Source: Mycolicibacterium litorale (GTDB lineage Bacteria > Actinomycetota > Actinomycetes > Mycobacteriales > Mycobacteriaceae). From it: a DNA stretch of 64,000 bases. The position numbers and the translations under genes are program-made. The stretch covers positions 4,650,001 to 4,714,000 of the forward strand of contig NZ_AP022586.1 in the NCBI RefSeq assembly GCF_010731695.1, given 5' to 3'. Under the pieces are notes generated by a model. The model was not told where the DNA came from, ran no database searches, and saw only the letters and a program-made list of their open reading frames with translations. Of the stretch, positions 29,751-33,613 are shown piece by piece; the first letter of the stretch is position 1; the number at the start of each line of letters is the position of its first letter.

Positions 29751-29795
29751 TTGCGTCTCCTAGCACGTCAAACTATAGTCTGGACACATGTCCAG
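29751..29795 (+). promoter_or_regulatory. Promoter with overlapping palindromic operator for the glycosyltransferase operon
   Basis: A -35-like TTGCGT (29751-29756), 17-nt spacer and -10 TATAGT (29774-29779) run directly into CTGGACA-CA-TGTCCAG (29780-29795), a perfect 7-bp inverted repeat at the expected transcription start. The core GGACA-NN-TGTCC recurs at the start of the TetR gene at 33607. Confidence 0.65.
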
Positions 29796-29869
29796 AAGGT
29801 TCGGAGTCTCTGCGTGACACGATTCGACCAGGCCAGCGCGACGCAGCCCAGCCTCGGATTCATCTGAGT

Positions 29870-31096
29870 ATGCGCATCGCTTTGTTGTCATACCGCAGCA
29901 AAACGCACTGCGGAGGTCAGGGCGTCTACGTCCGGCACCTCAGCCGCGGGCTGGCCGACCTCGGCCACGACGTCGAGGTGTTCTCCGGCCAGCCGTATCC
30001 GGAGGGGCTCGACCCACGGGTCCGCCTGACCAAGGTGCCGAGTCTGGACCTGTACCGCGAACCCGATCCGTTCCGCGTGCCCCGGCCGAGCGAGATCCGC
30101 GACCGCATCGACCTGCAGGAGCTGCTGACGACGTGGACCGCCGGGTTCCCCGAACCCAAGACGTTCACGCTGCGCGTCGCCCGCATCCTGGCCGAACGCC
30201 GCGATGACTTCGACGTCGTCCACGACAACCAGAGCCTCGGCACCGGCCTGCTGAAGATCGCGGCGGCGGGGCTGCCGGTGGTGGCCACCGTCCACCACCC
30301 GATCACGCGGGACAAGGTGGTGGACGTGGCGGCCGCCCGGTGGTGGCGTAAACCGCTGGTGCGGCGCTGGTACGGCTTCGCCGAGATGCAGAAGCAGGTC
30401 GCGCGCCAGATCCCCGAACTGCTGACCGTCTCGACCTCGTCGGCCACCGACATCGCCGACGACTTCGGGGTGTCCCCCGACCAGCTGCACGTGGTGCCGC
30501 TCGGCGTGGACACCGAGCTGTTCCGGCCGGCCGAGCACCGGGTCGGCGGCCGCATCATCGCGATCGCCAGCGCCGACGTCCCGCTCAAGGGCATCAGCCA
30601 TCTGCTGCACGCGGTCGCCCGGTTGCGGGTGGAACGCAACCTGGACGTCCAGCTGGTCAGCAAGCTGGAACCCAACGGACCGACGGAGAAGCTCATCGCC
30701 GAACTCGGGATCTCCGACATCGTGCACAGTTCCAGCGGTCTGTCCGACGAGGAACTCGCCGCGCTGCTCGCCTCGGCGGAGGTCGCCTGCATCCCGTCGC
30801 TGTACGAGGGGTTCTCGCTGCCTGCGGTGGAGGCGATGGCCAGCGGAACGCCGATCGTGGCCAGCCGCGCCGGCGCCCTGCCCGAGGTGGTGGGCGCCGA
30901 CGGCGAATGTGCCCGCCTGGTCGCACCGGGCGACGTCGACGACCTGACCAGGGCGCTGGGCGAACTGCTCGACTCGCCGGCGCAGCGACACCGCCTCGGT
31001 GCGGCGGGCCGTCGTCGCGCACTCGACGTGTTCAGCTGGGAATCGGTTGCGGCACAGACTGTCTCGGTCTACGAGCGGGCGATGGCGACATGCTGA
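29870..31096 (+). CDS. Family GT4 glycosyltransferase
   Basis: A GT-B fold protein of 408 residues. The N-terminal domain has MRIALLSYRSKTHCGGQGVYVRHLSRGLADLGHDV, the glycine-rich loop of GT4 retaining enzymes. The C-terminal domain has the donor site ACIPSLYEGFSLPAVEAMASGTPIVAS with the EX7E motif (E..SLPAVE). It transfers a sugar from a nucleotide donor to an unknown acceptor, probably at the inner membrane or cytoplasm. It is the first gene of a three-gene operon; its stop overlaps the methyltransferase start by 7 nt. Acceptor could be a lipid or polyketide of the cell envelope (inference). Confidence 0.88.
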   Translation: MRIALLSYRSKTHCGGQGVYVRHLSRGLADLGHDVEVFSGQPYPEGLDPRVRLTKVPSLDLYREPDPFRVPRPSEIRDRIDLQELLTTWTAGFPEPKTFTLRVARILAERRDDFDVVHDNQSLGTGLLKIAAAGLPVVATVHHPITRDKVVDVAAARWWRKPLVRRWYGFAEMQKQVARQIPELLTVSTSSATDIADDFGVSPDQLHVVPLGVDTELFRPAEHRVGGRIIAIASADVPLKGISHLLHAVARLRVERNLDVQLVSKLEPNGPTEKLIAELGISDIVHSSSGLSDEELAALLASAEVACIPSLYEGFSLPAVEAMASGTPIVASRAGALPEVVGADGECARLVAPGDVDDLTRALGELLDSPAQRHRLGAAGRRRALDVFSWESVAAQTVSVYERAMATC

Positions 31097-31815
31097 CCGT
31101 CGACTTCGACCGGCTGGGGATCGGGCCGGGCTCCAAGGTGATCGACGTCGGCTGCGGTGCCGGCCGGCACACCTTCGAGGCGTACCGGCGCGGTGCCGAC
31201 GTGATCGGCTTCGACCAGAACGCACAGGACCTCAACGACGTCGACGAGATCCTGCAGGCGATGAAGGCGCAGGGCGAAGTGCCTGCGTCGGCGAAAGGCG
31301 AAGCGGTCAAAGGCGATGCGCTCGACCTTCCGTACGCCGACGGCACCTTCGACTGCGTGATCGCCTCGGAGATCCTCGAGCACGTCCCGCAGGACGAACA
31401 GGCCATCGCCGAACTCGTTCGGGTCCTCAAACCCGGTGGCTCACTGGCGATCACCGTGCCGCGCTGGCTGCCCGAGCGGATCTGCTGGCTGCTGTCCGAC
31501 GAGTACCACGCCAACGAGGGCGGCCACATCCGCATCTACAAGGCCGACGAACTGCGCGACAAGGTCACCGCACACGGACTGCGGCTCACCCACACCCACC
31601 ACGCCCACGCGCTGCACTCGCCGTTCTGGTGGCTCAAGTGCGCGGTGGGCACGTCGAAGAACGACCATCCCGCGGTCGCGGCGTACCACAAGTTGCTGGT
31701 GTGGGACATGATGTCGGCGCCCTGGCTGACCCGACGCGGTGAGGAACTGCTCAACCCGCTGATCGGCAAGAGTGTCGCGCTGTACTTCGAGAAGCCGGCG
31801 GATGTTCGCCGCTGA
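31090..31815 (+). CDS. Class I SAM-dependent methyltransferase
   Basis: A protein of 241 residues. SAM motif I is VIDVGCGAGRHTFEAYRRGADVIGFD (about 17-42), followed by GDALDLPYADGTFDCVIASEILEHVP and the post-II segment LVRVLKPGGSLAITVPRWLPE. The C-terminal half includes HHAHALHSPFWWLKCAVG. The family methylates small molecules such as lipids, quinones or sugars. Overlaps of 7 nt with the glycosyltransferase and 14 nt with the next gene show strict operon structure, so it probably acts on the same product as its neighbours. Confidence 0.86.
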   Translation: MLTVDFDRLGIGPGSKVIDVGCGAGRHTFEAYRRGADVIGFDQNAQDLNDVDEILQAMKAQGEVPASAKGEAVKGDALDLPYADGTFDCVIASEILEHVPQDEQAIAELVRVLKPGGSLAITVPRWLPERICWLLSDEYHANEGGHIRIYKADELRDKVTAHGLRLTHTHHAHALHSPFWWLKCAVGTSKNDHPAVAAYHKLLVWDMMSAPWLTRRGEELLNPLIGKSVALYFEKPADVRR

Positions 31816-32872: not shown

Positions 32873-32879
32873 AACCCCG

Positions 32880-33551
32880 TCACCCCAGCGAACCGGGCTG
32901 TCCCGCAGTGCGTTCCAGTACGCGCATCGAGCCTTTGACGCCCATCTCGCGGAACGCGCCGGTGTCCAGCGCCCTGCGGTAGATGTGGAACGGTGCCTGG
33001 CCGCCGTCGGCGGGATCCGGGAACACGTCGTGAATGATCAGCGCGCCACCGGGCTCGACCCACTTCGCCCAGCCGTCGAAGTCGCGCTGGGCGGCCTCCT
33101 CGGTGTGCCCCCCGTCGATGAACAACAGCCGCAACGGGGTTCGCCAGCCGCGCGCCACCACCGGGGAGCGCCCGACCACCGCGACCACATGGTCGTCGAG
33201 GTCGGCGGCGTCGAGGGTGTGCCGCATGGTCGGCAGGGTGTCGAACCGCCCCGTGACGGGGTCGACCATGGTGGTGTCGTGGTACTCCCAGCCCGGCTGG
33301 TGCTCCTCGGAGCCGTGGTGGTGGTCGACGGTGAACACCACGCCGCCGGTCTCCTGGGCCGCGGCGCCCAGCATCAGCGTGGACTTGCCGCAGTAGGTAC
33401 CGATTTCGACGCCGACGCCGTCGCCGAGGTAGCGCAGGGCGGTGTCGTAGAGCGTGCGGCCCTCGTCGGCGGGCATGAAGCCGACGGCCTCGTCGGCGAG
33501 CGCGAACAACCGCGCTGCGCGGGGCGGGAGATCAGTGTCGATGGGGCTCAT
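32880..33551 (-). CDS. Class I SAM methyltransferase (CmcI/Methyltransf_24-like)
   Basis: A protein of 223 residues. Motif I GVGVEIGTYCGKSTLMLGAA (about 44-63), then VFTVDHHHGSEEHQPGWEY and LRLLFIDGGHTEEAAQRDFDGWAKWVEPGGALIIHDVF fit the methyltransferase family 24 group, which includes O-methyltransferases acting on sugars and antibiotics. The gene is convergent with the operon end at 32872 (7 nt apart) and divergent from the TetR gene at 33607 (55 nt). Shared regulation with the glycosyltransferase operon through the GGACA-NN-TGTCC palindrome is possible. Confidence 0.82.
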   Translation of the reverse strand: MSPIDTDLPPRAARLFALADEAVGFMPADEGRTLYDTALRYLGDGVGVEIGTYCGKSTLMLGAAAQETGGVVFTVDHHHGSEEHQPGWEYHDTTMVDPVTGRFDTLPTMRHTLDAADLDDHVVAVVGRSPVVARGWRTPLRLLFIDGGHTEEAAQRDFDGWAKWVEPGGALIIHDVFPDPADGGQAPFHIYRRALDTGAFREMGVKGSMRVLERTAGQPGSLG

Positions 33552-33599
33552 GGCTATCCAACCTAGCCGTTGCTGGCCCTGCAGCGTTGTAGTAGCGTC

Positions 33600-33613
33600 C
33601 GGACATGTGTCCG
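33600..33613. promoter_or_regulatory. Palindromic operator at TetR gene start
   Basis: CGGACA-TG-TGTCCG, a 6-bp perfect inverted repeat, overlaps the GTG start (33607) of the TetR gene and faces the divergent methyltransferase. The core GGACA-NN-TGTCC is the same as in the operon promoter at 29780-29795. Confidence 0.6.

Follow-up and report, generated by a model that had tools for sequence, protein, structure and literature searches.

Genes and operators of the locus

The stretch of DNA analysed here, called the window, comprises 64,000 nucleotides (positions 4650001–4714000) of the 5.58-Mb chromosome of Mycolicibacterium litorale, whose nearest named relatives are Mycobacterium, and the subject of this work is a gene cluster for 3-O-methylmannose polysaccharide (MMP) within it, together with the neighbouring TetR-family regulator TetR-A and two copies of a palindromic candidate operator (as shown in Table 1). 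The operon (29870–32872) is composed of three overlapping genes, manT, pmeT3 and mmpH, and meT1 is convergent to mmpH. Judged by sequence matches, these four genes, which are found complete and together in the window, are the published MMP cluster of PMC9883506. The catalytic residues K240 and E313 of ManT described there are both present in the window protein with unchanged numbering, and this glycosyltransferase stays below the cut-off of MshA, the mycothiol glycosyltransferase (TIGR03449, 119.2 vs 462.5 bits). MmpH is an (alpha/alpha)6-barrel glycosidase, and its D44, D47 and E259 are the counterparts of the residues numbered D47, D50 and E262 in PMC9883506, the offset of 3 being derived from the D-x-W-D and E-x-x-E spacing. 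For pMeT3, solved structures are only distantly related (best E=1.5e-15), and PMC9883506 leaves its function unproven.

Table 1. Coordinates of the genes and control elements in the window.
Feature	Position	Strand	Description
manT promoter	29751..29779	+	TTGCGT 29751-29756, 17-bp spacer, TATAGT 29774-29779
operator 1, CTGGACACATGTCCAG	29780..29795	.	directly 3′ of TATAGT, over expected manT transcription start
manT	29870..31096	+	GT4 alpha-(1->4)-mannosyltransferase; PDB 7qsg E=1e-230
pmeT3	31090..31815	+	putative 3-O-methyltransferase; Methyltransf_11 E=5.7e-22; member of published cluster
mmpH (earlier “toroid protein”)	31802..32872	+	MMP alpha-endomannosidase; PDB 7qsj E=7.5e-200
meT1 (earlier “second methyltransferase”)	32880..33551	-	1-O-methyltransferase; PDB 6g7d E=2.6e-120; Methyltransf_24
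candidate tetR-A -10	33593..33598	+	TAGCGT (TANNNT type); string GTAGTAGYGTCC kept in most loci
operator 2, CGGACATGTGTCCG	33600..33613	.	contains tetR-A GTG start (33607), faces meT1
tetR-A	33607..34176	+	TetR-family regulator, KstR-like predicted fold, proposed MMP repressor
second TetR gene	34176..34856	-	
P450 gene	34881..36200	+	

According to passages of PMC9883506, mature MMP is cut by MmpH to oligomannosides, which serve as primers for elongation by ManT and are capped by MeT1. MMP is an intracellular methylated mannan and neither a terpenoid nor an envelope compound, which is what the initial annotation had guessed the product of this operon could be. The “QW-repeat toroid” protein of that annotation turns out to be the glycosidase MmpH without a recognisable cyclase domain; it matches no Pfam family at E<=0.01 and is therefore no terpene cyclase. 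The annotation had further named an unrelated hydrolase, playing no role with the glycosyltransferase, as one case that would overturn its proposal: the protein is indeed a hydrolase, but it does have such a role, because it cuts MMP into the primers of ManT. A terpenoid or another small glycosylated, methylated envelope compound, which the gene content alone would allow, is thus rejected as practically out of the question, since three of the proteins match, over their full length, the structurally solved ManT, MmpH and MeT1.

The promoter of the operon and the start of tetR-A carry the same palindrome. Operator 1 abuts the -10 box of manT, and since the -35 and -10 boxes are separated by a 17-bp spacer, the palindrome covers the predicted transcription start. 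Operator 2 overlaps the start codon of tetR-A, and its first base is some 50 bp away from the start of the divergent meT1 (33551). Within the 64 kb there are exactly two copies of the core GGACA-N2-TGTCC (GGACANNTGTCC), at 29782–29793 and 33601–33612, as an identical 12-mer in opposite orientation, compared with a mean of 0.07 over 100 dinucleotide shuffles, none of which reached two. In these respects the initial annotation was accurate: it had placed one palindrome directly after the operon -10 box and a second over the TetR start, facing the second methyltransferase gene, with the core at both transcription units. The search for the palindrome elsewhere, which it had recommended, gave 9 GGACANNTGTCC sites in the whole genome and 0 for the reversed control pattern.

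In both tetR-A (33601–33612) and tetR-B (L134:6843–6854), a paralogue treated below, the palindrome encloses the GTG start codon, and the register is identical in the two. Operator and first codons are therefore locked together, and both mRNAs are probably leaderless or nearly so; for tetR-A, a short leader or none is also what the position of the candidate -10 box would suggest.

Two points count for the explanation that TetR-A or TetR-B activates transcription or that the palindrome is a transcribed RNA element: some TetR-family proteins are activators, and the site has palindromic form. Both alternatives are considered very improbable, since the site lies over the expected transcription start, which is the position of a blocking repressor, and a matching site exists in the second promoter. 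The RNA element is rejected: only about half of the palindrome would be transcribed, so that no hairpin could fold.

Conservation of the operators and distribution of TetR-A

The conservation of the operators was followed in two samples, namely the best 80 of 448 relatives in an MmpH scan, which were kept as named loci, and 198 genomes of the genus, in 158 of which mmpH was found. The manT site is present in all 80 loci. The exact promoter-plus-operator string, counted per genome, is contained in 112/158 mmpH-positive genomes and in 0/40 mmpH-negative ones; its positions, where compared by eye, are about 2 kb upstream of mmpH, with the exception of G115, in which the string is on another contig. 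Of the remaining 46 mmpH-positive genomes, 38 were read (G017, G037, G068, G084, G096, G098, G123 and G174 being left out), and RGACANNTGTCC stands upstream of manT in 38/38. In total, no cluster among the 119 examined, window included, failed to show RGACANNTGTCC upstream of manT (119/119). The TATAGT box is kept in 105 of them, and most columns beyond the palindrome are variable. The letters flanking the core, which are independent of the search expression, are A in 119/119 and G in 117/119. The intragenic position of some among the 9 genomic sites might speak for palindromes arisen by chance; with the low shuffle mean and a site in every cluster examined, this explanation is vanishingly improbable.

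TetR-A passes the curated cut-off of the TetR_N DNA-binding domain (48.5 vs 24 bits). Over the tetR-A start, RGACANNTGTCY is found in all 60 of the 80 loci that include this start (40 perfect copies and 20 differing by one or two transitions) and in 30/30 further loci of the second set with tetR-A in the fetched piece (90/90 in total). When DNA is inserted between mmpH and meT1, as in L010, L011 and L015, the site stays with meT1 and tetR-A. Moreover, TetR-A (best E below 1e-45) is found in 114/158 mmpH-positive genomes and in only 2/40 others, and G200 has one additional relative of 52% identity. The initial annotation had proposed that the operon, the second methyltransferase gene and the regulator are connected through a common TetR-type operator; this is supported, the operator being present in every cluster examined.

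The mmpH/meT1 junction (window 32872–32880) is a hot spot of insertion, with about 0.7 to 6 kb inserted between the convergent gene ends in relatives (L010, L011, L013, L015, L021, L028, L036, L052, L053, L065, L071, L072, L076, L078 and L085); meT1 and tetR-A remain close neighbours in these relatives wherever both are covered. After tetR-A, both in the window and in many relatives, come a second TetR gene and a divergent P450 gene, and no GGACANNTGTCC site occurs at this pair (34176–36200) within the window. The neighbouring TetR and a P450-like gene are also kept in L176, a locus from a genome without mmpH, where the place of meT1 is occupied by another gene, presumably nicotinamidase-like as judged by eye.

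The paralogue TetR-B and the loss of TetR-A

TetR-A was not found in 44 of the 158 mmpH-positive genomes, and the manT site is kept in all 42 of these that were examined (35 by the exact string, 7 by reading of the locus). In 10 TetR-A-less genomes with a named locus (L058, L068, L074, L077, L079–L082, L086 and L087), several of them from slow-growing species, the best genome-wide TetR match is only 42–45% identical and has a GGACATGTGTCC site at its start; this is TetR-B. In the window's own genome, TetR-B is located at 5235267–5235848, between a ferredoxin-CYP51-SDR-P450 operon and aldA, where the CYP51 matches 1e9x with E=1.4e-247 and the aldehyde dehydrogenase reaches 958.7 bits in TIGR04284, “Rv0768” (cut-off 775). 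This gene order agrees with that of Rv0763c–Rv0769 in a table of PMC10470581, and TetR-B is therefore assigned to the Rv0767c type. It has been reported in PMC10312376 that interaction sites of Rv0767c are enriched in GAC and GTC, and this is consistent with GGACA-N2-TGTCC.

TetR-A and TetR-B share 41–44% identity and a common ATAYTYFSSK stretch. In the TetR tree, from which L093 was left out, a single branch splits 37 TetR-A rows from 11 TetR-B rows with support 99/99, and there are long branches among the other rows. The window TetR-A falls outside the Rv0767c group, its locus being elsewhere and the A/B branch separating it from that group, and it is TetR-B at the coordinates given above that belongs to this group. 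With up to 3 mismatches, the 22-base start site of TetR-B is matched in 178/198 genomes, including the same 42 of the 44 TetR-A-less MMP genomes; at least one of these matches, that of G127, is probably due to chance, since its core is broken and the TetR survey gave no match in this genome.

The manT operator also differs slightly between the two groups of genomes. Its core starts with A in 25 of the 108 TetR-A-containing genomes examined (77 with the exact string, G, and 31 fetched ones without it, 25 of which have A) and in 0 of 42 without TetR-A, which fits a stricter reader of the manT site in the latter, although kinship might also account for it. These data bear on the explanation that the manT operator is mainly a TetR-B target in all species, TetR-A controlling only itself and meT1 or fine-tuning. 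The outliving of TetR-A by the manT site and the wide occurrence of the TetR-B start site (178 genomes, the probable chance match included) are in its favour; the place of TetR-A inside the cluster, its concentration in MMP genomes (114/158 vs 2/40) and the core base, which looks as if it were read differently unless kinship is the cause, are against it, and on balance it is regarded as unlikely.

In addition, a third paralogue, TetR-C, was seen in L105, L108 and L109, all from genomes without TetR-A. There it is 39–41% identical to TetR-A (38–41% over the members compared), and close to its start stands a palindrome of related sequence, which reads TGGACGAGTGTCTA in L105 and L108 and TGGACGAGTGTCCA in L109; a TGGACGAGTGTCTA-type site near the start is a property of some members. 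Eight of the 44 TetR-A-less MMP genomes gave a single TetR subfamily match (G035, G043, G109, G123, G125, G139, G151 and G205), and seven of them, G123 being the exception, match the TetR-B site; each of these seven has also kept the manT site. TetR-C as the regulator of manT where TetR-A is missing is disfavoured on this account, weakly, since 16 candidates were scored per genome.

As for further targets in the window's own genome, the wider pattern RGACANNTGTCY has 14 sites and its reversed control 2. Five of the 14 are convincing by position: manT, tetR-A, tetR-B, aldA and L001. At L001:1501–1512 (G000:C1:2247092–2247103) the same palindrome with a CC centre precedes a small gene at a distance of about 40 bp, and a mycofactocin-type SDR gene comes next; this is possibly a further member of the TetR-B regulon. 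The sites in L003, L004 and L005 are well inside reading frames, and L002 and L177, L178, L179, L180 and L181 have no assigned context.

Proposed control of the cluster and comparison with known systems

Taken together, the locus is the known MMP cluster, likely with its own local TetR repressor, which TetR-B probably replaces, or with which it shares control, in species where TetR-A has been lost. In this proposal, dimers of TetR-A would occupy CTGGACACATGTCCAG, which spans the start site of manT, and so shut off the manT-pmeT3-mmpH operon. The dimers would likewise occupy CGGACATGTGTCCG at the start codon of their own gene, by which tetR itself and probably the divergent meT1 would be controlled. 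A ligand would release TetR-A from the DNA, and by analogy with KstR, its relative in fold, a bulky acyl-CoA is the most likely candidate. TetR-B, with the same palindrome at its own start, most likely took over manT control, or shares it, in mycobacteria without TetR-A. The sequences themselves show what the genes are, how promoter and operators are built, how well they are conserved and where the regulators are present or absent, whereas binding, repression as opposed to activation, the hand-over to TetR-B and the ligand are inferred from them.

Several observations weigh against local repression by TetR-A, or limit it. The search expression used on the 119 clusters itself contained the core letters, so that 119/119 means that no cluster failed; the genomes are kin and the 80 loci are the nearest of 448 MmpH relatives, so that 119/119 and 42/42 describe persistence and not as many independent events. 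With only 16 candidates scored per genome in the TetR survey, a close TetR-A can be called absent with more confidence than can further relatives. Two genomes without mmpH, G161 and G169, keep a 77–78% identical TetR-A, and the 6.5 kb fetched from G161 (L176) contain tetR-A with its own site and no MMP gene; the role of TetR-A is therefore not strictly tied to MMP. The nearest predicted fold is that of KstR, the steroid-CoA sensor, at an identity of only 22–24%, and the cut-off of the KstR equivalog NF033703 is not reached (43.4 vs 280 bits). Finally, in PMC10470581 the Rv0762c–Rv0771 group is assigned a different putative regulator, Rv0576.

It is more tentatively speculated that the MMP genes belong to a regulon that senses lipids, in which one operator would be read by two paralogous KstR-like regulators, the inducer would be a bulky acyl- or steroid-CoA, and the operator would have been handed to the paralogue after local loss; this is possible, though we would sooner doubt it than rely on it. 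If it were true, the operator would couple a polysaccharide proposed to bind acyl-CoA to CYP51, P450 and aldehyde dehydrogenase genes, and the cell would make a CoA-sequestering polymer when bulky acyl- or steroid-CoAs pile up. PMC6593523 speaks against the steroid side of this idea: neither in M. smegmatis mc2 155 nor in R. jostii RHA1, according to that paper, was there a rise in most of the genes assigned to its factor. The paper also mentions a TetR gene, G155_29025, possibly the TetR-A of that strain, which adjoins a “motif X” of phytosterol-induced operons; its passage on this motif, the letters of which are given in a figure, is consistent with GGACA-N2-TGTCC.

The MMP biosynthetic cluster is already known, and its operator/TetR control circuit was not found in print within open-licence PubMed Central (PMC), to which the literature search, not extended to the 2019 MeT1 paper, was confined and which also yielded no paper on MMP regulation. 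The main text of PMC9883506 has no word starting with “regulator”, “promoter”, “operon” or “transcription”, and among its 21 “tetr” matches those in the passages shown are words such as tetramannoside. As roles of MMP in the cell, handling of fatty acyl-CoA and cold adaptation have been proposed (PMC9883506). A regulator whose predicted fold is nearest to KstR, with an operator apparently shared with the regulator of the CYP51 locus, would offer a direct route to the role of MMP through its ligand and inducing conditions, with a possible tie of MMP control to sterol or acyl-CoA metabolism. The operator's survival where the local regulator has been lost likewise makes a clear comparative example of a possible hand-over from one paralogue to the other.

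Compared with known systems, the MMP cluster of PMC9883506 has the same four genes and catalytic residues, and the window ManT, MmpH and MeT1 match solved structures; unlike in the present account, the control part is undescribed there. From KstR, the repressor of cholesterol catabolism with a steroid-CoA ligand, TetR-A differs by its low identity and its place outside the equivalog. The KstR operator also differs from the TetR-A palindrome. The Rv0767c-type TetR-B has the same palindrome core over its GTG start, in the same register as TetR-A; TetR-A differs in being linked to the MMP cluster, and it is missing in 44 of the 158 MMP genomes.
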